Assembly (NCBI GenBank): GCA_947466965.1
Contig: CANIFU010000028.1
Span: forward strand, 1 to 32,304
Length of the DNA stretch: 32,304 nucleotides
Reading direction: 5' to 3'
Origin: Bacteroidota bacterium
Lineage (GTDB): Bacteria > Bacteroidota > Bacteroidia > 2-12-FULL-35-15
The translations under genes were made by a program, and so were the position numbers. The notes beneath the pieces are model-generated. The model was not told the DNA's origin. It ran no database searches and saw only the letters and a program-made list of their open reading frames with translations. This document shows, one piece after another, positions 249 through 29,960 of this stretch (its first letter is position 1; the number at the start of each line of letters is the position of its first letter).

Positions 249-1049
249 TTACTTCTTCTTAAAATACTTCATTGCTTCAGGCAAAAACGCTTTAATATCT
301 GCAATACGTGTTGCATCATTTGGGTGAGTACTTAAAATTTGTGGCGGTTTATTTCCAGACTTTTTTTCCATACGTTCCCAAAAACGAATCGCTTCAGAAG
401 GATCGTAACCTGCAATTGCCATAAACACCAAGCCCATTTTATCCGCTTCACTTTCGTGTGTTCTAGAATAGTTTAACATTCCAAGTTGAGATGTAATACC
501 ATATGATTGTAAAAAAAGATCCTGAGTCATTTGTGGCTTTTGAGAAAGTGCTACCGACAATGCTATTCCTCCCGCTTGAACTAAAAGCCCCTGACTCATG
601 CGTTCGTTTCCATGACGCGCAACTGCATGGGCAATCTCATGCCCCATTACACAAGCCAATGCGCCTTCCGTTTGAGTCACCGGAAGTAATCCTGAATAAA
701 CAACAACTTTTCCGCCTGGCATACACCATGCGTTTATTGTATTTTCATTTACCATATGAAATTCCCATTGATAACCAACCAATCGACTAGCTAATCCCTG
801 CTCTTTCATAAATATTTCAACCGCTTGTTGTATCTCTTTCCCAATTCTGGAAACCATCTTCGCATTGGCATCTGCTTCAGAAACAGCAGGATTTTTCGAT
901 AAAAAATCAGAGTACGTTGTAAGACTCATCCCAATCATTTCTGATTCCGAAATCAAACTAATTTGTTTTCGATTGGTGATTGGTACTTTCTGACATGCAG
1001 TAAAAAGTAAACTATTAATTAAAACTGAATAGAAAAATTTCCTTTTCAT
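249..1049 (-). CDS. M48 family zinc metalloprotease, predicted lipoprotein
   Basis: The 266-residue protein is a Zn-dependent M48 peptidase. The zinc motif HEIAH lies at residues 137-141 and the third-ligand region HESEAD at 199-204, both typical of the family. The N-terminus is a hydrophobic segment ending in a lipobox-like FTAC with Cys19, so it is probably lipid-anchored facing the periplasm, with about 245 residues of mature protein. Relatives (BepA/LoiP type) act in outer-membrane protein quality control, so a role in envelope protein turnover is an inference. The gene lies 22 bases after clpS on the same strand and is probably co-transcribed with it and with the giant SPOR protein upstream. 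No multi-pass membrane region is seen, so it is not an HtpX type. The family call is firm; substrate and partner are unknown. Confidence 0.88.
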   Translation of the reverse strand: MKRKFFYSVLINSLLFTACQKVPITNRKQISLISESEMIGMSLTTYSDFLSKNPAVSEADANAKMVSRIGKEIQQAVEIFMKEQGLASRLVGYQWEFHMVNENTINAWCMPGGKVVVYSGLLPVTQTEGALACVMGHEIAHAVARHGNERMSQGLLVQAGGIALSVALSQKPQMTQDLFLQSYGITSQLGMLNYSRTHESEADKMGLVFMAIAGYDPSEAIRFWERMEKKSGNKPPQILSTHPNDATRIADIKAFLPEAMKYFKKK

Positions 1050-1403: not shown

Positions 1404-4400
1404 TTATTTCCCTATCATTTTTTTTGCTTCATCCACAGTAATTTTAATTCCATCTTTATAAGAAACAATAAATGCATCCGAGATGGCAGCAATGGTAATT
1501 ATTTCAGTCTTTACTGCTATGGCTTCTTCATAAGAACGATATATGCCAACAGTATAAATCGTTAACCCATTTACATCTTTATAGTTTTTAACTCCTTTGT
1601 TCGCAACTTTCAAAAACTTATTTGCAATTTCTAAAGGTACTTCATCTTTAAATGCGCCAATCTGAACTTTAAATACAAGTCCCGAATCAATTTGAAAAAG
1701 ATTACTTGCCCCTGCTACTTTCAACTGTTCACTTAAATTAGGCATTGTAACTTCAACTTCTTTCGATAAAGGTTGAATAACATTTGAAGGAGTTGTTAAT
1801 TGCGTTGATACTTCTTTTGCGATTGTTTCAGGATTATTTTCATTTGTTAATTTCGTTATGTTGATATCTGTTTTTAAAACATCTGCTGCCACAGTTTTTC
1901 CTTTGTTCAAATCTGTTACGATAACTTTTTCAGAAAAAGTTGGCAAAACATTCATATTTTGAGCGCTTGGGAATATGGCAGAACCCTGTTTAATCAATTG
2001 ATCTGCTTCAATCATAGAAACACGTTTACCATTATTGTAGGCAACAATAAAGGCATCCTTAATTCCTAAATCTACTACCATATTTTTAGCCTCTGAGGCT
2101 CTTCCTAAATTATTATAAATTCCTGTGTTATACCTTAAATTGCCATTCGGTGCAACTTCGGTATATAGGGGCTGCACATTAAATAATTTTGAAGCTGGTA
2201 CCGGTTGTGAATAAACACCAATCTGAACAGTATAGAATAAACCCGTAACTACTGTTACGCTTTCTGATACTATTGAAGCATCTATCTGTGTGTTTATCGA
2301 AGAGGGAGTTTTTGTTTCTGAAGATGCTGTGAAATTATTTCCGGTAGTCAAATTTGATGAAGAAGCAATGTTTGATGTATTTATCGTATTATTAGTAATA
2401 GAAGTTGCTTTATTTATGGAAGGTGCCAATCCACCTGTCATTTCCATTGCTTCTGTCATTGATACTCGCTTTCCATTATAAAAACCTACAACAAAAGCAT
2501 CTTTATATCCCATTGCCTGGATTTCTTCTTTCACCTTATCAGCTGATGCAAACGTAGTAAACAAGCCTGCTGTATAACGGATAAAACCTAGTGGAGTTGT
2601 TTCACCTGTTATTGGAGACATTCCTTTAAAAAGATCCTGAGGAATAGGATTTCTAAAAGCTCCTATCTGAACTTTAAAAATCAAGCCTTCAGGTAATTTT
2701 TCATTTACAGGAATTGGCTTAGAATTAGAATAAACAGGTGTCGATTTTTTTATAAATATGTTATTGGTAAGCGCAGACGTTTTTATGTTTACGTCTGCGT
2801 TATCTATTTTTGAGGTAGTATCAGATACATTTATTGTTTTAGTTTTTGTTGAAATTCCAACAATAGAAGGAACATTTACCTGAGTCGAATTTGATATATT
2901 ATTTTCACCTGCATTGTCTGTTTTTTTTAATTCATTGTCAACATTAGTTGTATCCGCAGACTTATCCGTTAAACTACTATTTTCATTTGAAGCATTCTTA
3001 ATACTTTCATTATCAGCTTTTTTAGATAAATTAAGAGCTACAGAATTATCTTTAGATTTAGAGGAAGCTGATGTTTTTAGACTAGCAAAATCTGTATTAT
3101 CAAAGGTAACATCTGGCGTATATTTTATATAAATATCCTTTGCTTTTTGTTGTTTTTCTAAAGCAATCAATTCATTTTTAAAAGCATCAGCCATAGCAGA
3201 TTCTTTTTCATAAAAGGAAGTTGTAGTATTCGCTACTTCATAGAATTTGATAGCACGGTTAAAATAGATCGCTGCTTCATCTTTCATCATTTCAGCCATT
3301 AAAATATCGTCAGCAGTATTTCCTTGAGTGGCTTTTATAAATTTTTCTAACTTAAATTGATTATAACTGTATTCGGTCTTATTAGCATCTGCTGCAACTT
3401 GCGCTGCTTCAATTACTTTTTGTTCTGATTGTTTTGAAAAATCTTCTGCTTCAGCATAAATTGCATTTTTTGTTGTGCTATTTTTTTCTGCTGCTGCTTT
3501 AGTTTTTAAATTATTAGACTGAACGGAAAGGTATTCAGCTTCTTTCGTTAATATTTTCGCTTTTATTGCTTGTTGAGAAGCCGAAGAGCTTGTATAAACA
3601 AATCCATTATCAGCAGTATTACTTTCTAACTCCGAAGATTTATTTGACGAAGAAACATTTGTCTTATTCTCTGTTTTTGAAACAGCTGATAAAATTAATG
3701 AACTATCTACTATTGAAATATCATTTATTTTTGAAACTGTATTTGTATTAAGATTGTCAGCTTCCATTGTTTTTGAAAATGTTTCAGCTGTTGTTTTATT
3801 TGTTGTCGCCTTTGCAGTAGTATCTGCAATAATATTTCCATTGTTTTTTGTGACTTCAGCATCAGATATTATCGTTGAATTAGCTGCCAATAAATTGTTT
3901 CCAGAGTTTGAATTTATCTCGGATGCATTCGTATTGAACGCTATTTTCGGATCTGTTTTACCTGCCAATTTTGCTAAACGCTGTTCCGCTTCTTTCTTTT
4001 TTTCTAAAGATAATACTTCTCCTTGTTTGACCTTAAGCGATAGCATGGCTTTCATTTCCGGATTAGAGCTGGCATCCATATATTTTACTTGCTTTTCAAC
4101 ATAGTTATCGATGGCCTTGCTCCAATTGATTAGCGTTTCTGCTTTTGCTTTTTCACGGTCCGACATGTTTTTTATGCCATTTGTTGCATCAATTTCTTCT
4201 GAATATTTAGTATTGATGGCTGCCAAATTTGAATCTGTTACAGTTGTATTATCTGCAGATAAATTGTTTAAACTAGTATTTTTTGTTGTTTCTTTTCTTT
4301 TATCAGCAATAAGAGCGTCTTCTTGTTTTAATTTTTCTTGTGTTGCTATAATTGTTGTTATAGTTTTTTGCTTGTCTTTTAATTCTGTCTCTAATGATGC

Positions 4401-7124
4401 TATTTCTATGCTTAACTCTTTTTTCTTTGACTTATTTTTTTCGGTTTTTGAAGCTGCTTTTTTAGTCGAGAGGTCAACTGAAATCGATGAAGACCAATCT
4501 TTATATAACGCTAGTTTTATGTTTTCGCGTTCCAATGCATTCTCAATTTTATCTGCGGCAACAATATCATCTTCATATTTTTGTGCATAATCCATTTTTG
4601 CTTCGGAGAAGGTTTGAGTTGCTGAATTATCAGCTACAACTGAATTTGTTACTGTATTATTATTCAATATCGACTCGGTTGTACTTGTCTTATTTAAGGC
4701 AAGAGCATTTTCCGAATTTGAATTTTTAATTGTATTTACTTGAGCCTCCAATTTAGCTTTATTAACCATTGCAACTTCTGCAGTAGCTTTTTCACTTGTT
4801 CCTATTTTTGCTTTGTCGTATACATTGCTCACCAATGCAGTTTCATTTAAAAGACCGATATATTCTTTTTGTAATTGAGCAACTTTTTGTTCGTTCAATA
4901 CAAGATCTTTCTTACTTTCTTCGGTGTCCATCTTAAGACCTGTCATCTGATCGATCAATCCTTGTTTTACTTTCTCGTTTCTTTCTTTATCAACATCAGC
5001 TTTGGTAGTAACGATTAATGCTTCATTATCAAATATTTCTTGTTTAATATCGGCTCCTGTTTTCAAAGCTTTATCCAATGCACGTTTTATGTTATCCACA
5101 TCCATCTTCAAACTATTTGCTAAAGTCGGATTGTTATTTTGTTCAGAAAGTGCGTCTAATTTCTTTTGTTGCTCTTCGAGTTTAGTGAATAAAGCGGGAT
5201 CAGATTTTTTAGATTTCACAGCAGCTTCCAAATCTTTTGCATACTGCAACGACAAATCAGCTTCTTGATCTTTTGCTATCGCACGAAATTCAATTTTTTT
5301 TGCAAGATTAAATGCAGCAACCGTTTCCTGACTTAACTCTTCCGCTTCTTTAGTTACACCATTCGCTTCCTCAATCGCTGCCTGCTTTTTAACATTATCA
5401 TCCATCACAGAAGCATCCTCCAAAAGCTGTGTTGCTTGTCTGGATTTGTTGGCAGATAATTCATTCTTTTGATTTGCCAAAACCAAAGCCACATCGGCTT
5501 GTTCGTGAAGATCTTTTGCCTCTTTTGAAACATATTCAGCATCTGCGTATCCAATTTTCACAATATCATTATTGCTTAACTTTGTATTTGTTGATGTCGC
5601 AATTGCATTATTGGTTTTTACAGTGGCATTCGTTTCTAATGAAGTATCTTTTAAATTGGAAGCAGAAGTATTTGCCGATGCAATTATATCACGCACATCC
5701 ATTTTAGATTTTTCCTTAATAAAATTTAGAGCAAGCAAGTAATTGGCATCATCTATTACATCATCAATTAGGTTTTTAATTATAAGTTTATCTGTCCCTA
5801 ATTCGTAACTGATTTCTTGTTTAATTGGGCGAAAAACATCTTGAACAGGAACTTCTACTACATCTGACTGAGTTTCAAAACCTGGTGTTTCGACAGTAAA
5901 TAGAAATTTTCCGCTATTCGGAATATTGATCAAATACCCACCATTTGCTGCTGTAGATGTATAGATTCCGACGATCACATTTTCATTCAAATCCTTCACA
6001 GTAATCTTCACATCTAAAGGCTGATTATCGCGATTCTTCAAAACTGATCCTTTAATAATCGCGATGTCGATAGGCTTACGTTCTATATTTATATGATAAA
6101 CAGCAGTCATTCCGGTTTTACTAGCTCTGGCTGATGAGAAGTATGCTTCACTTTCTGATTCATTGGTGATGTATAAAATATCATCGTCAGGTGTATTTAT
6201 AGGAAAATCAAGGTTTTCAGGTTTATTCCATGTATTCGTTTCTTCATTCAATTTTGTTTTGAATACATCAAAACCACCCATTGAATTATGTCCTTTGGAA
6301 CAGAAATAAAGTACTTTACCATTCGGATGAAGAAAAGGAAAGTCTTCGTCATATTCGGTGTTAACAGGATAACCTAAAGTTTGCGGCTTGCTCCACTCTC
6401 CTGAGGGAAGTTTACGGATGACATAAATATCCTTTCCTCTTTCTGGATCATTTCCATAGCTGGAGAAAAAAATTTGATTATTGTTGGATGCAAGATAAAT
6501 GATCGATTTCTCTTTTTTCTTTTTATCCATAGCGGATTTAAATACATCTTCATCTGGCTTTACCAAAAGCTTTCCGCCAATACCGGTAATGTCGTAGGAA
6601 CGAAAAAAATCAGCACGACTCATTTCTTTCTTTTCAATTACTTCCAAATCTGTTAAATTACGCAATAGTTTTTTTCCGTTTTTACACATTTCAATCTGCC
6701 GATTCACCATCAATTTCTCTGTTTTTGAAGCGGAAGCAACATTTTTATAACGCAAGTATTGTTTGATGGCATCATCAAAACGATAATTCAAGTGATAAGC
6801 GCGCGCCAAATAAAAAAACACCTCTTTTTCTACTTCCGGTTTATTGGCTGCAAATTCTAAAAAGGCAATTGGTTTTTCTTTATCATCGCTCGCATAAAGC
6901 ATACATACACCTAAACGATAATTATAAGTAGGATCTTTGGGGTAAATACTGGTGAGTTGAGTATAGAGCGGAAATGCTTCCTCAAACATTTCATCATTAA
7001 ATAATTTGGAAGCCTGTGATTTCAATTCTTCTTCTGATCCAAAATTGGTTTGAGCAGAAGCTACGCGCATGCTAAGGGCAAACGTAATTAGCAATAAGTA
7101 AATCAACCTTAAATGCTTGTTCAT
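1404..7124 (-). CDS. Giant secreted TPR / PD40 / CRD / coiled-coil protein with three SPOR-like repeats (PorE-like layout)
   Basis: The start is the ATG at 7124, because it gives a clean signal peptide (residues 1-24, ending ASA-QT) and about 1,906 residues. The frame stays open to an ATG at 7235, but that start would put 37 odd residues before the signal. Domain order: TPR-like helices about 30-130; PD40/WD40-like repeats about 210-340, with two phrases of the type FPFLHPNGKVLYF and YFSSAR; a carboxypeptidase-regulatory-like beta domain about 355-440; then roughly 1,000 residues rich in Lys, Glu, Ala, Asn, Ser and Thr, largely coiled coil. Three SPOR-like repeats follow, at about 1477-1561, 1626-1711 and 1813-1906, each opening with VQIG(A/V)(F/Y). 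TPR-propeller-CRD is the front of T9SS PorE, which ends in an OmpA domain; here SPOR repeats, known to bind denuded peptidoglycan, take its place. The homology to PorE is inferred from architecture only. It is probably the first gene of a unit with clpS and the M48 gene. Confidence 0.8.
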   Translation of the reverse strand: MNKHLRLIYLLLITFALSMRVASAQTNFGSEEELKSQASKLFNDEMFEEAFPLYTQLTSIYPKDPTYNYRLGVCMLYASDDKEKPIAFLEFAANKPEVEKEVFFYLARAYHLNYRFDDAIKQYLRYKNVASASKTEKLMVNRQIEMCKNGKKLLRNLTDLEVIEKKEMSRADFFRSYDITGIGGKLLVKPDEDVFKSAMDKKKKEKSIIYLASNNNQIFFSSYGNDPERGKDIYVIRKLPSGEWSKPQTLGYPVNTEYDEDFPFLHPNGKVLYFCSKGHNSMGGFDVFKTKLNEETNTWNKPENLDFPINTPDDDILYITNESESEAYFSSARASKTGMTAVYHINIERKPIDIAIIKGSVLKNRDNQPLDVKITVKDLNENVIVGIYTSTAANGGYLINIPNSGKFLFTVETPGFETQSDVVEVPVQDVFRPIKQEISYELGTDKLIIKNLIDDVIDDANYLLALNFIKEKSKMDVRDIIASANTSASNLKDTSLETNATVKTNNAIATSTNTKLSNNDIVKIGYADAEYVSKEAKDLHEQADVALVLANQKNELSANKSRQATQLLEDASVMDDNVKKQAAIEEANGVTKEAEELSQETVAAFNLAKKIEFRAIAKDQEADLSLQYAKDLEAAVKSKKSDPALFTKLEEQQKKLDALSEQNNNPTLANSLKMDVDNIKRALDKALKTGADIKQEIFDNEALIVTTKADVDKERNEKVKQGLIDQMTGLKMDTEESKKDLVLNEQKVAQLQKEYIGLLNETALVSNVYDKAKIGTSEKATAEVAMVNKAKLEAQVNTIKNSNSENALALNKTSTTESILNNNTVTNSVVADNSATQTFSEAKMDYAQKYEDDIVAADKIENALERENIKLALYKDWSSSISVDLSTKKAASKTEKNKSKKKELSIEIASLETELKDKQKTITTIIATQEKLKQEDALIADKRKETTKNTSLNNLSADNTTVTDSNLAAINTKYSEEIDATNGIKNMSDREKAKAETLINWSKAIDNYVEKQVKYMDASSNPEMKAMLSLKVKQGEVLSLEKKKEAEQRLAKLAGKTDPKIAFNTNASEINSNSGNNLLAANSTIISDAEVTKNNGNIIADTTAKATTNKTTAETFSKTMEADNLNTNTVSKINDISIVDSSLILSAVSKTENKTNVSSSNKSSELESNTADNGFVYTSSSASQQAIKAKILTKEAEYLSVQSNNLKTKAAAEKNSTTKNAIYAEAEDFSKQSEQKVIEAAQVAADANKTEYSYNQFKLEKFIKATQGNTADDILMAEMMKDEAAIYFNRAIKFYEVANTTTSFYEKESAMADAFKNELIALEKQQKAKDIYIKYTPDVTFDNTDFASLKTSASSKSKDNSVALNLSKKADNESIKNASNENSSLTDKSADTTNVDNELKKTDNAGENNISNSTQVNVPSIVGISTKTKTINVSDTTSKIDNADVNIKTSALTNNIFIKKSTPVYSNSKPIPVNEKLPEGLIFKVQIGAFRNPIPQDLFKGMSPITGETTPLGFIRYTAGLFTTFASADKVKEEIQAMGYKDAFVVGFYNGKRVSMTEAMEMTGGLAPSINKATSITNNTINTSNIASSSNLTTGNNFTASSETKTPSSINTQIDASIVSESVTVVTGLFYTVQIGVYSQPVPASKLFNVQPLYTEVAPNGNLRYNTGIYNNLGRASEAKNMVVDLGIKDAFIVAYNNGKRVSMIEADQLIKQGSAIFPSAQNMNVLPTFSEKVIVTDLNKGKTVAADVLKTDINITKLTNENNPETIAKEVSTQLTTPSNVIQPLSKEVEVTMPNLSEQLKVAGASNLFQIDSGLVFKVQIGAFKDEVPLEIANKFLKVANKGVKNYKDVNGLTIYTVGIYRSYEEAIAVKTEIITIAAISDAFIVSYKDGIKITVDEAKKMIGK

Positions 7125-7244: not shown

Positions 7245-7353
7245 AGTTTTTTTATTGATTGATGCTATACTTTAAAAAATTCCATAGAATTATCTATTTT
7301 TCAATGGTTTTAAAATATTTACAGGCAAATTCCGTTTCTTGAATCGCTTACTT

Positions 7354-7361
7354 TATATTTG
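7354..7361 (+). promoter_or_regulatory. -7 promoter box four bases before the lipoprotein start
   Basis: TATATTTG matches TAnnTTTG exactly and is followed by TATC and then the ATG at 7366. Transcription would begin at or within a few bases of the start codon, giving little or no leader. Confidence 0.5.
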
Positions 7362-7365
7362 TATC

Positions 7366-8805
7366 ATGAAAATATCACGGATTATTCCTTTTTGTCTCTT
7401 TTTGATTGCTATTGTGTCTTCCTGTAAAAAGGATGAACTAATCACCGACACCAGTGCTAAGCTTTTATTTTCAACTGATTCGGTTTTATTCGATACTGTT
7501 TTTCATTTTGCCGGCTCTACTACAAAAGTTTTCCGCATTTATAATCCCCACGATCAGCCAATGAACATTTCAAAAGCCTATTTGGCTGGAGGAACAGGCT
7601 CAGCATTCAAACTAAATATTGATGGTGTTTCCACTACTGCAAGTGCACCTGTATTAACGGATATTGAAATTTTAGGTGGGGACAGTTTATATGTATTTGT
7701 TCAGGTTTTTGTAAATCCATCGGGAATCCTTCCCGTTCTTGTAAAAGATTCTATCATCTTTGAAACGAATGGTAATATTCAGGATGTGAAGCTTCTTGCG
7801 ATCGGACAAGATGTGTATTTACATAAACCTTTACCAGGAAAATTTTATTCTATAATTGGAAAAGAAGGCAAAACAACGATTTTACCGAATGATAAACCAC
7901 ATCTAATTTTTGGTTATGCAGTTATTGATTCTCTAGGCAAATTAATTATTCAGGCAGGAACAAAAATATACATGCACAACAATGCTGTACTTTGGGTATA
8001 TAAAGAAGGTACACTTGAGATCCTGGGGACTCAAGGCAATGAAGTCACTTTTCAAGGCGATCGGCTAGAACCCGAATACAAGGATGTTCCCGGACAATGG
8101 GGTAAAATCTGGCTTTCTCGATTGAGCAAAAATAATATCATTGATTGGGCAATCATTAAAAACGGACAAATTGGAATACAAGTCGATACGGTTGCATCTT
8201 TTACAAATCCGACACTACGACTCTCTAATACGATTGTAAAAAACATGTCGGCTGCGGCTTTATTCGGACAAGGCGCTCACATCAGAGCGGTGAATTGTGT
8301 TTTTGCTAATTGCGGACAATACGTTGCAGCTCTCACTATTGGCGGGAAATACCGCTTTGAACATTGTACGTTTGCAAATTTCTGGGACAGAGATGAAAGA
8401 ACAACTCCAATAATTGCTTTGAATAATTATTATGTATCTGGTAGTTCTTACGTCTTAAGACCATTAGACAGTGCATATTTTGGAAATTGTATTATCTATG
8501 GAGATACTGATGAAGAGATAGGAATAGATTCATTGAGTATTGCCGGACCCGGTTATTTTTCATACAAATTTGATCATTGTATTTTAAAAACTTTAAGAAA
8601 CACATCGAATGTTCATTACTCTACAATATACTCTAATAATCCCGGATACAGGGATATTAGTGTCAACGATTATCGTTTAACATCCACATCTTTTGCTATT
8701 GATAAAGGTGATACAGGGATTTTTATTCCATTTGATCTTAACAATGCAGCGCGTCCTAATCCAAGCACTTCACTCCCTGATCTTGGTGCATATGAATTTT
8801 ATTGA
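7366..8805 (+). CDS. Predicted lipoprotein with right-handed beta-helix region
   Basis: The ATG at 7366 gives 479 residues with a lipoprotein signal ending VSSC (Cys20) followed by KKDEL, so it is probably an outer-membrane lipoprotein. An upstream TTG at 7339 is in frame but would precede the signal and overlap the -7 box. The first ~145 mature residues look like a beta-sandwich: they cover how a structure departs from a reference and include DSLYVFVQVFVNP, resembling ASPM/SPD-2-type Ig folds. The middle (about 165-420) has repeating short strands and Asn/Cys-rich turns typical of parallel beta-helices. The C-terminus ends PDLGAYEFY, the closing motif of choice-of-anchor-Q/beta-helix proteins. 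No catalytic residues are recognisable. It is divergent from the giant SPOR protein gene. Function unknown; surface carbohydrate binding or cleavage is possible. Confidence 0.75.
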   Translation: MKISRIIPFCLFLIAIVSSCKKDELITDTSAKLLFSTDSVLFDTVFHFAGSTTKVFRIYNPHDQPMNISKAYLAGGTGSAFKLNIDGVSTTASAPVLTDIEILGGDSLYVFVQVFVNPSGILPVLVKDSIIFETNGNIQDVKLLAIGQDVYLHKPLPGKFYSIIGKEGKTTILPNDKPHLIFGYAVIDSLGKLIIQAGTKIYMHNNAVLWVYKEGTLEILGTQGNEVTFQGDRLEPEYKDVPGQWGKIWLSRLSKNNIIDWAIIKNGQIGIQVDTVASFTNPTLRLSNTIVKNMSAAALFGQGAHIRAVNCVFANCGQYVAALTIGGKYRFEHCTFANFWDRDERTTPIIALNNYYVSGSSYVLRPLDSAYFGNCIIYGDTDEEIGIDSLSIAGPGYFSYKFDHCILKTLRNTSNVHYSTIYSNNPGYRDISVNDYRLTSTSFAIDKGDTGIFIPFDLNNAARPNPSTSLPDLGAYEFY

Positions 8806-8885: not shown

Positions 8886-9920
8886 TTATAAAAATCTAAC
8901 ACTGGTTGTTTTCGATAATTTATTTTTGAAAATGCCTTTATACTGTAAGAATATCTCAAATCCGCCAACTGTTTTTGTTGCCTCAATTAATTTTGATGCA
9001 TTGATATCGTATGCTGCACCGAAAGAAAATTCTTTGTAATCGTATCGAAAAGTAACATATACAGCATCTCTAAAGCGATAAAATACTCCAATATAAAAAG
9101 CTTTATCTGTTTGATTATCCGTATAACGGGATGCCTCTTCCAATACATACTTCACATTTAATCCGCCATTCAATAATAAAGATGTACCCTGTTGGTATGC
9201 AATTAAACTAGGTAATAATGTTGTGTTGCTAGTCTCACTTAATTTATAAGCAAAATTCCATTGTACACCAAATTTAGGAATCAATCTTTCTGGTCCTCCA
9301 ATAATACTTACAAGTGGTGCCGTAAAATGATGGAACGAAAAACCCAAAGCACTTCTGAATAAATGATTTGTTCTGAAATTCCAAACGATACCTGTTGACA
9401 TATCTAGATAGGCTACTCCTCCTCCACCTTCTGCTGTTCCATAAGCGGGGTTATAACTTCCAGCATTAGGGTCATATTGACTATCCCATTTCACTCCGCC
9501 CAATGCAACAGATTTTATATTATATCCAATGGTGTATCCAAGAGTAATGTTATGTTTCTGACGCCCTCCAATAAATTTAGTATATGACACCAAAGCATTG
9601 TAGGATTGTATTTTTAAATTAACAGGACCGGCATTATCATTTGTAATATTAATTCCTGCAGCAAAAAAATCATCACTCAACATTCTTTTTTTGAAGATAG
9701 GACCATCTGCAGCTATGTTAAATGTTTTATAAGGGTTGGTTACTGTAAACCATTGCATTCTATAAAGTGAATACACTCGAATATCTGAGTTGATCGCTCC
9801 GGTATTACCAGGATTCGCATTTAAGGGAGCAGCATAAAACTGCGAGAAATGCAGATCCTGTGCGATTCCTGAAAAACAAAATGTAAATATAAATGCTATT
9901 ATCAGAGTAGTTTTTTTCAT
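8886..9920 (-). CDS. PorP/SprF family T9SS outer-membrane protein
   Basis: The 344-residue protein has a signal peptide (residues 1-20, ending GIAQ) and the family's opening signature QDLHFSQFYAAPLNANPGNTG, followed by alternating beta-rich segments that fit an outer-membrane barrel. PorP and SprF proteins work with T9SS; SprF is needed for secretion and attachment of the type B CTD adhesin SprB, and PorP forms the complex with PorE, PorK and PorN in P. gingivalis. The gene follows the type B CTD protein by 51 bases on the same strand, so it is probably the dedicated partner of that cargo. Which role (PorP-like motor complex, or SprF-like cargo factor) cannot be told from sequence alone, but the cargo pairing favours SprF. 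Confidence 0.9.
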   Translation of the reverse strand: MKKTTLIIAFIFTFCFSGIAQDLHFSQFYAAPLNANPGNTGAINSDIRVYSLYRMQWFTVTNPYKTFNIAADGPIFKKRMLSDDFFAAGINITNDNAGPVNLKIQSYNALVSYTKFIGGRQKHNITLGYTIGYNIKSVALGGVKWDSQYDPNAGSYNPAYGTAEGGGGVAYLDMSTGIVWNFRTNHLFRSALGFSFHHFTAPLVSIIGGPERLIPKFGVQWNFAYKLSETSNTTLLPSLIAYQQGTSLLLNGGLNVKYVLEEASRYTDNQTDKAFYIGVFYRFRDAVYVTFRYDYKEFSFGAAYDINASKLIEATKTVGGFEIFLQYKGIFKNKLSKTTSVRFL

Positions 9921-9971: not shown

Positions 9972-12839
9972 TTATCGTGCAAGCATAATACTTCCGTTTT
10001 CTTTAGCTGTATCACCATTACAGAAAGTAACTTCCAGTGTGTATACAAATACATTATCATTCATCCTGAATCCGAATAATTTTCCATCCCAAGCCGTTTC
10101 CAAATCTGAAGTTTCAAAAACTTTTTCGCCAATTCTATCAAATATTCTTAAATTAATATAATCTATTCCGCGACCATGTACTTGAATCACATCATTTATT
10201 CCATCTCCGTTTGGAGAAAAACCGGTAGGCATATAATATGAGTAAATATTTTGTACTATTACCGTAACTGTATCCGAATCGGTACATCCGTCAGGACTGG
10301 TGTACGTTACATAGTAATCAGTTGTAACTGAAGGAGAAACTGTCGTCTGAGCTCCGGAAGAATTTCCTCCTGGCCCCCAGACGTATGAACCATCTGCTGG
10401 ACTTGCAAACAAAGTTGTTTCTTCGCAAGCATTAATCAGCAAATTACCACTTATAGTAACAGGTATTGGAGCACCTACAGTAATATATGCTACTTGTGTA
10501 AGTGTATCAGAACCATCGCCATTTGCAGCAATTAAGGTAACATTATAAGTTCCATCAACAGAATAACAAATACTGGTTGGATTCTGCGAAGAAGATGTTG
10601 CAGGTGTTGCTCCAGGGAATGACCAAGACCAAGAAGTTGGAGTATTCGTACTTAAATCTGTAAAATTAACACAAGCGGGTGTAGTACAGAAGATTGTTTG
10701 ATTAGCAGAAAAATTCGCCACTGGAGGAGTGCAGGTGTTTACTGCAATCGCAACACTATTTGAAGTTGCAGGCGAACCTGTTGCACAAGGTGAAGATGAA
10801 GTCATTATGACTGTTACAACATCACCATTAGATAAAGTAGTTGAAGTAAATGAAGGTGAATTTGTCCCGGCATTTACTCCATTCACTTGCCATTGATACG
10901 CTGGTGTGCCACCATTGTTAGGTGTTGCAGTAAATGATACAGGATCTCCTACACATATTGAAGTTGCTGTACTAACAATTGTTACCGATACAGTAACACT
11001 TGTATTCACAATCATTGAAATTGTATTTGACGTTGCAGGGGAACCAGTAGCACAACTTAAAGAGGAGGACATGATAACTGACACAACATCACCATTGGAA
11101 AGTGTGTTGGTAGCAAACGTTGAAGCTGTTGCACCCGCCTCATTCGTTCCATTTATTTGCCATTGAAAGGTTGGTGTTGTACCGCCATTCGTTGGGGTTG
11201 CTGTGAATGTTGCAAGATCACCTAAACAAATTGTTGCTCCCGGACTTACTGCAATATTTACTGATGCAGGAACAGTAGCAGAAATAATAATTGTAATCGC
11301 ATTGGATGATGCAGGAGAACCGGTGACACAACTTAAACTAGAAGTCATTATTACTGTTACTTGATCACCATCAAGCAAACTTGAAGAAGAGAATGTTGAA
11401 GATGTTGCTCCACCAATATCTAGTCCGTTCACTTGCCATTGATAGGTTGGAGCTGCTCCTCCATTAGAAGGAGCAGCGGTAAACGTAACAGCATCACCAG
11501 CGCAAATTGTTGAAGCTGTTGATGTAATAGCTACAGAAGCAGTAACCGAAGAAGACACTATCATTGTAATTGTATCTGAGCTTACTGTTATTGGTGTTGC
11601 ACAAGAAGCATTGGAAGTCATAGTAACATTTACAATATCTCCATTACTTAAAGAAGTTGTTGAAAAAATTGATGAAGTAGCACCTCCAACATTTAATCCA
11701 TTAATCTGCCATTGGTAAGTTGGAGTTGTTCCACCATTAGTTGGGGTAGCAGCAAAAGTAACAACATCGCCTGCACAAATTGGTCCGGACGGAAGCGCAT
11801 TAATAGAAACGGATGGAACTGTTACAGCATTTATTATTATATCCACACCGTTATCCGTTCCAATAACTGCAGGAGTTGAACTGATTACTCTGATTCTAAA
11901 GGCTGTTCCTGATACAGTAGAACAAGGAATAGTGCAAGCAATAGTTCCAGTATTCGCAACGCTTACAAGTGTTCCAATTGTTGTGGGTGCTGCAAAACTA
12001 CCAAGGGCATCAGATAATTGAGCTGTATATGTATTTCCTGCAGTAAATGTTCCTGTACTTGTAAACGGAAGATTTACAATGCTGCAAGCACAAAGTGGAC
12101 TACTGGAAATAGAACCAGTAGTAATTGTATTTGAAGAGGAAACGGTTGATAAGGTAATATCATCAACAGCGAATGAAGGATCTGTGCCAATTCCATCATC
12201 ATTGTTCACCCAACTGAAAGCTATTTTTACAAGTGGATTATTATCAGCAGAAACGGGTAAAGCCAATGTCCTCGAAGCCCATAAACCTTGTCCACCGCAA
12301 CCCGTAAACGTCTTAGGCATATTATCTAACATTGCCCAAACAGCACCATCAAAATAATAAAAACTTGCATCGTCAAAAGTGGTTTCACCACCTTCTATAT
12401 AATTAAAATTAACAGTGATGGTTGATTTCCCTGTGCAATTAATTGTTGGCGATTCTGACCTTCTATTGGTCTCTGGACAAAATAAAATTCCGCATAAACC
12501 ACCTGCATCATAAGCCGCACCAGCTGTTGGAAAAAAAACACTCGTTATATGTAACGTATTGTTTCCATTTAATGCCACTCCACAACTTGTTGGAGCACCT
12601 AAATTTGGAGTAATTCCTCCTCCTTCGTTATCTGAAACTTTAAAAAAATTAGGATCAATACCTTCTGCTCCGGTGGAAACATTAAATGTCCAACCAGTCC
12701 CAGCGCTTGTCCAAGTTTCTGTCCAAAACACCTGAGCACTTACCTTAATAGAAAAAAGCAATAAAATAAGTGCAACCATTGCTACTGATTTTAACACTTG
12801 ACTTTTCATAGAAAGTCTGCAAAAAGTATAATCTTTCAT
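9972..12839 (-). CDS. Secreted multidomain adhesin-like protein with Ig-like repeats, PKD domain and T9SS type B C-terminal domain
   Basis: A T9SS cargo of 955 residues. The N-terminus offers two starts, ATG 12839 and ATG 12809; the second leads directly into a standard signal peptide, but the first is kept because a promoter fits upstream. A cysteine-containing beta domain (about 36-230) resembles a MAM/jelly-roll fold, with a statement-like segment IDPNFFKVSDNEGGG. Four tandem ~91-residue Ig-like repeats span 344-706, a PKD-like domain 707-789 (SWSWSFPG, GTYNVTL), and a further beta domain 790-864. The gliding-motility-associated C-terminal domain is at 865-955: PTGFSPNGDGINDV, IFDRIGEKVF, AWDGK and a final IMLAR. 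This domain is the secretion signal for T9SS, and the PorP/SprF gene follows at once. It is likely a surface adhesin. No enzymatic motif is seen. Confidence 0.85.
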   Translation of the reverse strand: MKDYTFCRLSMKSQVLKSVAMVALILLLFSIKVSAQVFWTETWTSAGTGWTFNVSTGAEGIDPNFFKVSDNEGGGITPNLGAPTSCGVALNGNNTLHITSVFFPTAGAAYDAGGLCGILFCPETNRRSESPTINCTGKSTITVNFNYIEGGETTFDDASFYYFDGAVWAMLDNMPKTFTGCGGQGLWASRTLALPVSADNNPLVKIAFSWVNNDDGIGTDPSFAVDDITLSTVSSSNTITTGSISSSPLCACSIVNLPFTSTGTFTAGNTYTAQLSDALGSFAAPTTIGTLVSVANTGTIACTIPCSTVSGTAFRIRVISSTPAVIGTDNGVDIIINAVTVPSVSINALPSGPICAGDVVTFAATPTNGGTTPTYQWQINGLNVGGATSSIFSTTSLSNGDIVNVTMTSNASCATPITVSSDTITMIVSSSVTASVAITSTASTICAGDAVTFTAAPSNGGAAPTYQWQVNGLDIGGATSSTFSSSSLLDGDQVTVIMTSSLSCVTGSPASSNAITIIISATVPASVNIAVSPGATICLGDLATFTATPTNGGTTPTFQWQINGTNEAGATASTFATNTLSNGDVVSVIMSSSLSCATGSPATSNTISMIVNTSVTVSVTIVSTATSICVGDPVSFTATPNNGGTPAYQWQVNGVNAGTNSPSFTSTTLSNGDVVTVIMTSSSPCATGSPATSNSVAIAVNTCTPPVANFSANQTIFCTTPACVNFTDLSTNTPTSWSWSFPGATPATSSSQNPTSICYSVDGTYNVTLIAANGDGSDTLTQVAYITVGAPIPVTISGNLLINACEETTLFASPADGSYVWGPGGNSSGAQTTVSPSVTTDYYVTYTSPDGCTDSDTVTVIVQNIYSYYMPTGFSPNGDGINDVIQVHGRGIDYINLRIFDRIGEKVFETSDLETAWDGKLFGFRMNDNVFVYTLEVTFCNGDTAKENGSIMLAR
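10722..11810 (-). repeat. Four tandem ~91-codon Ig-like repeats in the adhesin-like gene
   Basis: Repeats at residues 344-435, 436-526, 527-618 and 619-706 share the pattern IC-x-GD, TFTA-P-NGG, Y/FQWQ-NG, LSNGD-V-V-MTS and SCATG-P-x-SN. Each keeps one Cys in ICxGD and one in the SC segment, so a disulfide per repeat is plausible. Divergence between copies is moderate, so they are older duplications, and length variation between strains is expected. Confidence 0.85.
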
Positions 12840-26389: not shown

Positions 26390-26428
26390 AACTAAAAAAG
26401 GGAATCATTGTGATTCCCTTTTTTAGTT
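26390..26428. terminator. Perfect bidirectional terminator
   Basis: AACTAAAAAAGGGAATCA (26390-26407) pairs without mismatch with 26411-26428 around a TTG loop, an 18-pair stem with six-A/T tracts at its base. It separates two convergent genes, and the TAA stop of the minus-strand PorP/SprF gene (26427-26429) overlaps its right edge. Confidence 0.9.
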
Positions 26429-27464
26429 ATATCACATTCTTTTGCTTGAATAATGCACCTTTCAGAATATTATATTTCAAAAAAACTTCTACTCCCCCGT
26501 TGTATTTAGTCGTTTCCCTGTATGAAGAAATATTCACATCATATGAAACGCCAAAAGAAAAATCAGCGAGCGTCAAGAAAACAGAAGGGATAATAGCATC
26601 TTTATAACGGTAATATACTCCAATACCAAAAGCAGACTCTGTCAATAACCCGGTGATCTTTGTATCATTTTTATATCTGTAACGAATGGCGCAGCCGCCT
26701 GTAATTTCGATTGCTTTGCCTTGCTGAAAGAAGATGGCAGAAGGAAGAAATGAAATTTTACTTCCCGACTTGTCAAAAAAACCATTCACATTCACAACCA
26801 ATTTTCCATATAATTTTTCGGTAATTGACAAATATTTTTGCGTAGGTTGGTTGAGATGATAATAGGCAACTCCAACATCAAATTTTCTTTTTTCGTTTCG
26901 TGCAAATTTCACTTTACCATTTGAATATTCATAGTATATACCTGCAGCTAGGTCAAAATAAAAAAAGGTTGTTGTCGGAGTCGTTTCGTTTGAACTTATA
27001 GCTGTATTAAAAACTTGTCCATCAAATTGATTTCCCCAATTAAGATTAGATAAATTAATTTTATGCTGAGCACCGCCAAATGATAAGCCCATAGAAAATT
27101 TACTTTCTTTGCTTACTGGAAGAATAGCCGCAACGCATAAGTTAGCCTGGGTAAGGCCGAATTGAGAATCACCTGCTTTATCACTAAAAAAATTAATGCC
27201 TGCGCCAATATGTGCTTTTTTTTCATTTTTGTCAAAAAAAGGCATATCCGCAGAGGCTGCAACCGTATTGAATGCATTTCCCATTGCCATCCATTGGTTT
27301 TTATAATTTACCATCGCACGAACATATCCACTATAAACACCTGTAGCACCAGGATTTAAAAGCTGAGGCGTTTCATTGTATTGAGAAAAATGAACGTCTT
27401 GCGACATTGAAAACAAAGCCGTAAACGAAAATAAAAAAGTAAAGGAATTTCGAATTAATTTCAT
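26427..27464 (-). CDS. PorP/SprF family T9SS outer-membrane protein
   Basis: The 345-residue protein has a signal peptide (ending SMSQ) and the family's opening QDVHFSQYNETPQLLNPGATGVYSG, then alternating strands of an outer-membrane barrel. It is the second such gene in the window and is clearly divergent from the first. It starts nine bases after the CotH-type cargo stops, so the two must be one transcript. By family, SprF-type proteins are needed for secretion or attachment of the neighbouring type B CTD cargo. The gene ends within the bidirectional terminator. Confidence 0.9.
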   Translation of the reverse strand: MKLIRNSFTFLFSFTALFSMSQDVHFSQYNETPQLLNPGATGVYSGYVRAMVNYKNQWMAMGNAFNTVAASADMPFFDKNEKKAHIGAGINFFSDKAGDSQFGLTQANLCVAAILPVSKESKFSMGLSFGGAQHKINLSNLNWGNQFDGQVFNTAISSNETTPTTTFFYFDLAAGIYYEYSNGKVKFARNEKRKFDVGVAYYHLNQPTQKYLSITEKLYGKLVVNVNGFFDKSGSKISFLPSAIFFQQGKAIEITGGCAIRYRYKNDTKITGLLTESAFGIGVYYRYKDAIIPSVFLTLADFSFGVSYDVNISSYRETTKYNGGVEVFLKYNILKGALFKQKNVI

Positions 27465-27473
27465 ACTGACAGA

Positions 27474-29960
27474 TTATCGAACCAACGTAATATTTCCTTT
27501 TTTCTCAACCGGAGTTCCATCGGGCATAATACCGGAAACGCGATATGCAAAAACACCCGGATTACATGGTTGTCCCATAAATGTACCATCCCAACCAATA
27601 GATCTATTGTTGGTTTTAAAAACCTGTTGTCCCCAACGGTTATAAATTTGAAAATCCAAATGATCAATACTTCCTAATACAAATAATAAATCATTGTTAT
27701 TATCACCATTGGGAGAAAACACGTTCGGAATACCAACTTCTGCCCCACCCTGAGGTTCTGATTCCAAACGAAAAACAGCAATTACATTTTCTGTTTGATT
27801 AAATGTCACTTCAGCAGAGTCGCTCACAGTGCTTGGCGTTGGAGTATGGTTCGTCATTTCCCAATGATCAAAAATATAAATTCCATTAGGAGTAGCTTTT
27901 AATTTGGTAACGATCCCACCAAAATAGCTACCCGAATAAATATAAGAAGCAGGAGTTATACTATTAACTTTAATATTTCCTGCACCAGGAGGAAACACAT
28001 CGAATGTTACGTCGTAGGGACCTGTTAGAGTATAACAATCAATCAAGCCTTGGGTCAAAGCAGTGCAACGCTGATTCACTTGTGCTCTAAAAGTAGCAGC
28101 ATTTGCTTTCCATGTAGTATAGTTCCCACCCCATTTGGCACACTGAGCAGTCATTTCAGGATCAATAATGTTTATCATACTATCCAATAGAGGAAGAGCG
28201 TATGAACAATTTAATTTCGTATTCATCAAATCAATATAGCGTGCCTGATAGTATTGTTTAAAATCAGGGTTTGCCATTAATGCATTTAAAATTTGTGTAT
28301 GACCTTGTCCACCCGGATCATCTAAGCCTTCTACGTTACAAGGATCAGCATTCGGAGAAGGATCAGGTATTCCTGTATAATTAATATAATGTCCGAGAAT
28401 GGCATCCAAATCCCAAAGCGTATAGCGCCATTTCTTTTTATCACCTAAAGTATCTAATCCACGCCACCAGGCAGTGTTCCAATCCAACCAATCTGAAGTC
28501 GCCAACCAAGAGTTAAAAACAAAATAATCTACAAAACTTTTAATATTGAAAAGGCTGTCGACATAGGCATAATTGGAAGCAACGGCCATACTATTTGAAG
28601 TGATGTATGAACGAAGAGAATTCCAATCTGTTTGAGCCTGGGCTCCACCGTATGCGCTCCATGTACCACCCCATGTTTGCAGAAATTGTACATTCGGATC
28701 ATCTTGTTTATAATAATGATCTGTAAAATCGAGGTCATCGACTTTTTCACGCACATCATATACGCCCCAATATTGTCCGTTTAAATAAACAATTGCGGGA
28801 GCCCATGTTCGTTCATCCATATATAATTGCGCACGTTGTGAAAGCGTATGAGCGTATGCATCACGAATATGAGCAGGAGCGCCTGGAGCAAAAGGATAAT
28901 TGTCGTTTGCCGCCGCTTTAAAAATCAAACGTTGATAAGAATCGCGGTCTTTATTTGTAAAAACAGGAGCGTTTACAGCATAGTTATAACCCATTTCATC
29001 TTTGGAAACATAATCAAATCCGCGCTGACTATAAGCCCACGAATCGTTTCCATGTTCATTGGTTTCACCAGCTGTTTCAGCAATTAATATTTTTGCTTCA
29101 TTAAAATATTCTAGTCCTGTTTCAGCAGTAAGTTGAGTACCATTTAAAAGATCATCTGTTTGATCGCCAAAAACAGAAACAACAGGAATGGTATGTGTTG
29201 AATTAATAAAGTAAGTATTGCTTTCAATAAAACTTGCGGGAACAAGCGGATTAGAACTAAATGCTTTTGCTCTGAGAACTGTAGTTGATGAGATACTAAT
29301 CGGTGAAGTATAAGTTGTTGATCCAATTGTAGGAATTGTTCCGTCGGTAGTATAATGAATCGTTAATCCAACACCTGCAGCGGTGATTGCAACTGTTTGT
29401 GCACCTGCATAAAATCCTGCAACAACACTCATTGAAGGACGGGTAGCGTATTCCTGCATTGCTCCGGCATTAGATGTTCCGGAAGTAGGACTTGTAAAAA
29501 CGCCCCAGGTTGTTCCACCATTTGTTGTTCTGCCTCGCGAGTGACCGGCTTGAGTCGGAACGAGGGTCATAGCATCGATAATCGTTCCTGAAGGATTTGC
29601 AAAAACAATAGCTTCAGGTTTTGTCTGCGTAAATTTAATACCTGCATGAATATTTGTACCCACGACTGTATTTTTTCCGGAGGCCCACACTCTGAGAAAT
29701 CCATTGGCAGGAATTGTTACACCTGCTGGTATTGGCCATTTTGTAGGATTAGAAATTTTATCACTGAAATAATAACCTGCTAAAGCAACGGATGATCCTC
29801 CTGCATTATATAATTCTATCCAGTCGGGAGTTTCACCAAAGTTATCGGTAATACTAATATTAGAACAAGAAAACTCATTGATCATTACCTGACTTTTTGC
29901 TGATGATGAAAAGAAAAGGAATAAAACAATAAAGGGTAAAAAGCGAAAGTAATTTTTCAT
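27474..29960 (-). CDS. CotH-kinase-like secreted protein with lamin-tail domain and T9SS type B C-terminal domain
   Basis: An 828-residue T9SS cargo. Signal peptide 1-23 (AKSQ); lamin-tail-like domain 24-160 (VMINEFSCSN, DWIELYN, PANGFLRVW); chitobiase/HEX C-terminal-like domain about 172-252 (IHYTTDGTIPT); CotH kinase-like domain about 260-640. The kinase-like part has YLNGQYWGVYDVREKVDD, a SDWLDWNT segment and LWDLDAILG (Asp517, Asp519), which correspond to the CotH motif set for nucleotide and metal binding. CotH of Bacillus phosphorylates spore-coat proteins. A beta repeat region (about 650-732) precedes the type B CTD at 743-828 (NVFSPNGDNNNDLLF, IYNRWGQQVF, GWDG). Catalytic residues appear intact. 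The target is unknown and secretion by T9SS is inferred. PorP/SprF follows directly. Confidence 0.87.
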   Translation of the reverse strand: MKNYFRFLPFIVLFLFFSSSAKSQVMINEFSCSNISITDNFGETPDWIELYNAGGSSVALAGYYFSDKISNPTKWPIPAGVTIPANGFLRVWASGKNTVVGTNIHAGIKFTQTKPEAIVFANPSGTIIDAMTLVPTQAGHSRGRTTNGGTTWGVFTSPTSGTSNAGAMQEYATRPSMSVVAGFYAGAQTVAITAAGVGLTIHYTTDGTIPTIGSTTYTSPISISSTTVLRAKAFSSNPLVPASFIESNTYFINSTHTIPVVSVFGDQTDDLLNGTQLTAETGLEYFNEAKILIAETAGETNEHGNDSWAYSQRGFDYVSKDEMGYNYAVNAPVFTNKDRDSYQRLIFKAAANDNYPFAPGAPAHIRDAYAHTLSQRAQLYMDERTWAPAIVYLNGQYWGVYDVREKVDDLDFTDHYYKQDDPNVQFLQTWGGTWSAYGGAQAQTDWNSLRSYITSNSMAVASNYAYVDSLFNIKSFVDYFVFNSWLATSDWLDWNTAWWRGLDTLGDKKKWRYTLWDLDAILGHYINYTGIPDPSPNADPCNVEGLDDPGGQGHTQILNALMANPDFKQYYQARYIDLMNTKLNCSYALPLLDSMINIIDPEMTAQCAKWGGNYTTWKANAATFRAQVNQRCTALTQGLIDCYTLTGPYDVTFDVFPPGAGNIKVNSITPASYIYSGSYFGGIVTKLKATPNGIYIFDHWEMTNHTPTPSTVSDSAEVTFNQTENVIAVFRLESEPQGGAEVGIPNVFSPNGDNNNDLLFVLGSIDHLDFQIYNRWGQQVFKTNNRSIGWDGTFMGQPCNPGVFAYRVSGIMPDGTPVEKKGNITLVR

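Follow-up and report, generated by a model that had tools for sequence, protein, structure and literature searches.

A minus-strand gene in a Bacteroidota genome of 3.1 Mb encodes a giant protein with the front of the T9SS component PorE and a tail of SPOR-like repeats, which raises the question of whether this is PorE itself with an altered end or a protein with another role. The first-pass annotation took the former view, proposing that the OmpA end of PorE had been replaced by three SPOR-like repeats that tether the T9SS to peptidoglycan in a different way. We analyzed this proposal in the window (the 32,304 nucleotides of one entire contig), in the rest of the genome and in public genomes.

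Domain architecture of the giant protein

The mechanical open reading frame extends from 7235 to 1404 on the minus strand and comprises 1,943 codons. The start conserved among relatives is M38, at position 7124, so that the span first assigned to the gene fits, with the strand now specified as minus. Residue numbers given here follow the 1,943-aa mechanical frame rather than the conserved-start protein. The encoded protein consists, in order, of a signal peptide, TPR, a short PD40 propeller, a carboxypeptidase-regulatory-like domain (CRD), a long-helix block, variable linkers and three SPOR domains (Table 1). The signal peptide ends in ASA-Q. A lipobox is absent from the giant, and the pattern occurs in 1 of 65 aligned orthologues, there within the hydrophobic core; attachment of the giant to the outer membrane would therefore need a partner.

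Table 1. Coordinates of the giant gene, its encoded domains and its neighbors in the window.
Feature	Position	Strand	Remarks
Giant gene	1404..7124	-	1,906 aa from conserved start; mechanical ORF reaches 7235
Signal peptide MNKHLRLIYLLLITFALSMRVASA	7053..7124	-	No lipobox Cys; sequence reading
TPR-like helical repeat domain	6657..7034	-	ORF residues 68-193; AlphaFold helices, TPR chain matches
Short beta-propeller region with PD40 repeat	6057..6653	-	Residues ~195-393
Carboxypeptidase-regulatory-like domain	5838..6056	-	Residues 394-466; PF13620 E 2.5e-4, under curated cut-off; strands in model
Conserved long-helix block	4704..5573	-	Residues ~555-844; conservation 0.64-0.75 in family; helices pLDDT mostly >80
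Variable N/T/S/A/K-rich region with further, less conserved helical segments	2688..4685	-	Conservation, length comparison
SPOR repeat 1	2424..2687	-	Residues 1517-1604; glycan-contact Q and R positions present
SPOR repeat 2	1980..2243	-	Residues 1665-1752; glycan-contact Q and R positions present
SPOR repeat 3	1407..1682	-	Residues 1852-1943; Q present, basic position = Ile/Val
M48 metalloprotease, lipoprotein, BepA/LoiP-like	249..1049	-	PF01435 E 7.6e-35; downstream of giant
Divergent beta-helix lipoprotein	7339..8805	+	Neighbor kept in close relatives
PorP/SprF-family protein	8886..9920	-	PF11751 E 1e-29; neighbor only in subclade
Type B CTD (CHU_C) surface protein	9972..12839	-	Adjoins PorP; PF13585 E 2.9e-13; TIGR04131 over cut-off

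The PD40 repeat, the CRD-like stretch and the TPR-like helices together span residues ~68-466, and the best NCBIfam match of this front is PorE (NF052230), whose profile aligns to residues 249-411. PD40 (PF07676) was detected in the giant by Pfam at E 2.6e-6 and in 46/46 relatives scanned. The propeller region measures ~200 aa, versus 269 in PorE, whose propeller has five blades. TPR chains are matched by the N-terminal part in both sequence and fold, and Pfam TPR models match in part of the relatives scanned. The CRD-like domain sits where the order of PorE places it; its Pfam matches fall below cut-off, and the AlphaFold model is beta-rich there. That model, covering residues 38-869 with a mean pLDDT of 78.5, contains TPR-like helices, a strand-rich region, a second beta domain and long helices. 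The top Foldseek matches of this N-terminal model were Tc toxins, which we disregarded, as they had TM scores of 0.05-0.10 and arose from the long helices. Profile searches detected no OmpA domain in the giant or at its locus.

Between front and tail lie ~1,050 residues, described in the first-pass annotation as about 1,000 residues of coiled coil or low complexity. The length of this middle holds, but residues ~553-850 are well conserved and predicted to form long helices. Across 65 sequences the length of the helical block has a CV of 0.033, whereas 592 to 1,203 residues separate position 850 from the first SPOR domain, and the spacing of the SPOR domains from one another is more variable still. 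Because linker lengths vary much more than those of the folded parts, we favor flexible spacing over a fixed ruler, and the earlier suggestion that the protein's length sets the distance to the outer membrane is unlikely.

Profile, fold and PDB sequence match all identify the three tail repeats as true SPOR domains, in line with what the first-pass annotation had anticipated. Pfam SPOR was found in 55/57 relatives, and the best PDB match of the repeat profile is the SPOR domain of CwlC (E 3.8e-4). AlphaFold predicts three confident tail domains, mostly at pLDDT >90, joined by linkers below 50. Foldseek places two SPOR domains as the best PDB matches of this model, with DamX and FtsN lower down, and the model's fold matches overall include CwlC, RlpA, DamX, DedD and FtsN. 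VIA-align ranks CwlC (Z 7.5) and, in complex with denuded glycan, RlpA (Z 7.1) near the top, mainly over repeat 3. The tool itself rates Z values of 7-8 as middling, and we accepted these matches only because SPOR domains make up four of the five top rows. RlpA touches the glycan through Q270 and a basic patch to which R309 belongs (PMC6895207). By motif alignment, Gln occupies the Q270 position of repeats 1 and 2 in 57/57 relatives and that of repeat 3 in 46/57. The position of R309, assigned by motif reading (four residues ahead of a conserved Gly) and not by structural superposition, is Arg in 56/57 relatives in repeat 1 and 57/57 in repeat 2, and is Ile/Val-like in repeat 3.

PorE-type proteins elsewhere in the genome

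The first-pass annotation had named beforehand a canonical PorE elsewhere in the genome as a finding that would weaken its claim, and we found such a protein. In C6 of the same genome, directly after a QueE gene, lies a 673-codon protein with TPR, PD40, an OmpA end and a lipobox-like FSSC; porE is known to co-occur with queEC (PMC12204202). It scores 313.5 bits against the PorE model, whose cut-off of 600 bits was reached by no protein scanned in the genome, and we hence call it a PorE-architecture protein. Its presence rules out that OmpA was replaced in PorE: the joining of the TPR/PD40/CRD order to three SPOR domains stands, but the giant is an extra PorE relative beside a normal PorE and not PorE itself. 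With PorE (P. gingivalis PG1058) and the PorE-like family it shares the order of TPR, PD40 propeller and CRD-like domain. It differs from PorE in lacking both lipobox and OmpA, in carrying ~1,050 additional residues and three SPOR domains, and in scoring 85.8 bits against the 600-bit cut-off.

Additional OmpA-ended PorE-like proteins are encoded in the same genome. At least four times a PorP gene adjoins a PorE-like gene, with a spacing of 2-39 bp; for the C17 member, the OmpA match did not reach cut-off. A tree built on the propeller-CRD region groups the giants as a single clade (100/99) among the genome's PorE-like paralogues. Two shorter PorE-like proteins in C9 also end in SPOR-like domains (L045:3122-5215 and L045:7715-9661; 697 and at least 648 aa). 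They have a PorE-like front and C-terminal SPOR-like domain(s) in common with the giant but are short and lack its helical middle, and the tree does not establish them as its sisters.

Distribution and gene neighborhood

SPOR-tail matches were present in 36/36 genomes searched from the same family, and 80 further loci in public genomes, from Vicingus, Vicingaceae, Crocinitomicaceae and other Bacteroidota, share the plan of the giant, with 1,751-2,393 aa when complete. Exactly three SPOR repeats occur in each of the 21 within-family orthologues aligned, and nearly every complete distant orthologue likewise has three; L170 and L187 have four, and in L164 the profile detects only two. This conservation of repeat number is far from chance. 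In an even draw of Bacteroidia, related tails occurred in 113/296 genomes, usually in frames of 1,700-2,600 codons, and in a phylum-wide draw in 4/148, the genomes sampled being largely MAGs and the cut-off used (E<=1e-30) one that may miss divergent members. By hand tally, every genome was positive in families f9 (12/12), f12 (8/8), f32 (12/12), f35 (7/7) and f16 (6/6), and f11 and f27 had no match. The giant is largely a one-locus-per-genome protein, conserved clade-wide. A literature search for PD40 with SPOR returned nothing relevant among open-licence papers, and an earlier description elsewhere is possible.

This distribution bears on the proposed T9SS role. SprA_N was found in 288 of the 296 sampled Bacteroidia genomes, so that a genome's T9SS is no predictor of the giant, and co-occurrence of the two is uninformative as evidence; at least 175 of the 288 lack a giant-type SPOR tail at E<=1e-30. 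PorP was a neighbor in 9 of 71 loci with flanks, against ~4.4 expected at the PorP density of this genome (16 genes), and five of the nine belong to one close subclade. A conserved PorP linkage, on which the first-pass annotation would have the T9SS role judged, was thus not borne out, and of the different-kind peptidoglycan tether for the T9SS, the tether is plausible from the sequence and the T9SS role is not upheld. The giant also separates PorE-type architecture from T9SS function.

The T9SS could still be served in a static manner, if the front bound a PorP that holds a type B CTD protein and the tail's SPOR domains fastened this complex to the wall. The second and third genes upstream of the giant encode PorP and a CHU_C protein. 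A PorE-PorP-PG1035 arrangement has been proposed for P. gingivalis, where a PorE-PorP-type B complex is experimentally described (PMC9143113), and for F. johnsoniae a PorE homologue has been put forward as the anchor of a type B protein (PMC12618676). However, an opposite-strand gene intervenes between the giant and PorP, the genome's closely spaced PorP/PorE-like pairs have OmpA-type ends, and the PorP counts and the many SprA-positive genomes without a giant argue the same way, which leaves such a surface anchor unlikely. The window also contains, at 26427-29960, a second PorP with an adjoining CotH/CHU_C type B protein.

The commonest neighbor is the M48 protease, located directly downstream on the same strand in 36/71 loci. 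Its best NCBIfam match is the beta-barrel assembly-enhancing protease BepA (117.6 bits), followed by LoiP (62.2 bits), both under cut-off. This pairing, steady across distant loci, is what would be seen if the giant were an outer-membrane assembly accessory that acts with the BepA/LoiP-like protease and uses its SPOR tail only for localization. As the median gap between the two genes is 350 bp and the argument comes from gene neighborhood, we regard this role as doubtful. Upstream of the giant, many distant loci carry plsY, a name that reflects a reading of the sequence rather than a profile match, and a ~1,400-aa protein without Pfam matches. Overall, the gene neighbors of the giant do not point to a partner.

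Two neighboring proteins deserve separate description. The lipoprotein at 7339-8805 contains a right-handed beta-helix and a choice-of-anchor Q end. The protein of ~1,350-1,500 aa lies upstream of the giant in 19 related loci and, in many relatives, beside the plsY-like gene and the giant; the copy of the present genome is located elsewhere (G000:C2:31076-35506; L191); this copy had no NCBIfam match, and that of a relative (L130) no Pfam match.

A proposed tether to denuded glycan

SPOR domains bind glycan that has been stripped of stem peptides, which amidases produce at the septum (PMC6895207). By profile search, the genome contains two Amidase_3 genes, and the product of one of them, an N-acetylmuramoyl-L-alanine amidase (G000:C3:13810-14901; L054, L192), ends in a SPOR domain of the giant's subfamily. 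The TPR, propeller and CRD of PorE have been compared to CpoB-TolB-Pal, and for Bacteroidetes, in which no tol-pal loci were found, PorE is proposed as a possibly septal outer-membrane tether (PMC12204202). Because SPOR domains bind denuded glycan, an amidase here carries a related SPOR end and the front of PorE has been likened to CpoB and TolB, we propose, with a probability of about one half, that the giant is a PorE-superfamily scaffold that tethers an envelope complex to denuded glycan at sites of division or turnover.

As such a tether, the giant would be secreted and non-lipidated, and its TPR/propeller/CRD front would engage a partner that probably sits at the outer membrane. Its long helices and flexible linkers would span the periplasm, and the three SPOR domains would bind stem-free peptidoglycan glycan, which would enrich the giant where amidases act, at the septum or elsewhere. 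Its most likely role would be to link the wall with the outer membrane or with an envelope assembly complex in the course of division and envelope maintenance, rather than to act as the PorE of the T9SS. We infer this glycan binding, septal position, partner and function from the SPOR fold matches, the nearly invariant glycan-contact residues of repeats 1 and 2, the SPOR-ended amidase, clade-wide conservation, the M48 neighbor and the proposal of PorE as a Tol-Pal counterpart. Counting against the tether are the missing lipobox, the third repeat without its basic residue, and the nearby PorP/type B pair in the window and close relatives.

The tail might instead serve protein contacts in a structural filament or scaffold, as the RNP-type SPOR fold is shared with unrelated proteins (PMC6895207; lower VIA-align rows) and repeat 3 has no basic position, but in repeats 1 and 2 the residues at the glycan-contact positions hardly vary even among divergent relatives, which makes this improbable.

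The giant can be compared with several known systems. With FtsN, DamX, DedD, RlpA and CwlC the giant shares the SPOR fold and the Gln/Arg glycan-contact positions; it differs from them in having three or, in some relatives, four spaced repeats and a PorE-type front, and no transmembrane anchor or enzyme was found in it. With Tol-Pal (CpoB, TolB and Pal) and with PorE as its proposed equivalent (PMC12204202), it shares TPR, a propeller and a wall-binding end, yet its predicted wall-binding end is SPOR instead of OmpA/Pal, and no Tol motor is linked to it. For holding and constricting the outer membrane at division, Bacteroidota would need a substitute for the tol-pal loci that published analysis does not find in them, and PorE-type proteins, possibly septal, have been suggested (PMC12204202). 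With its PorE-type front, its three SPOR domains and its conservation in many families, the giant is a direct candidate for a division-linked tether, and its localization is testable. We consider it a speculative extension, with the odds against it, that the giant stands in for Tol-Pal in many Bacteroidia, as a PorE-derived tether that would follow denuded glycan to the septum and draw the outer membrane in.

Another protein of this genome, of 757 aa (L048:3960-6233; G000:C3, minus strand), combines a PorG-like front (NF052316, 50.8 bits, below cut-off) with three SPOR repeats; it adjoins a 474-aa SPOR protein, and similar proteins recur in relatives.
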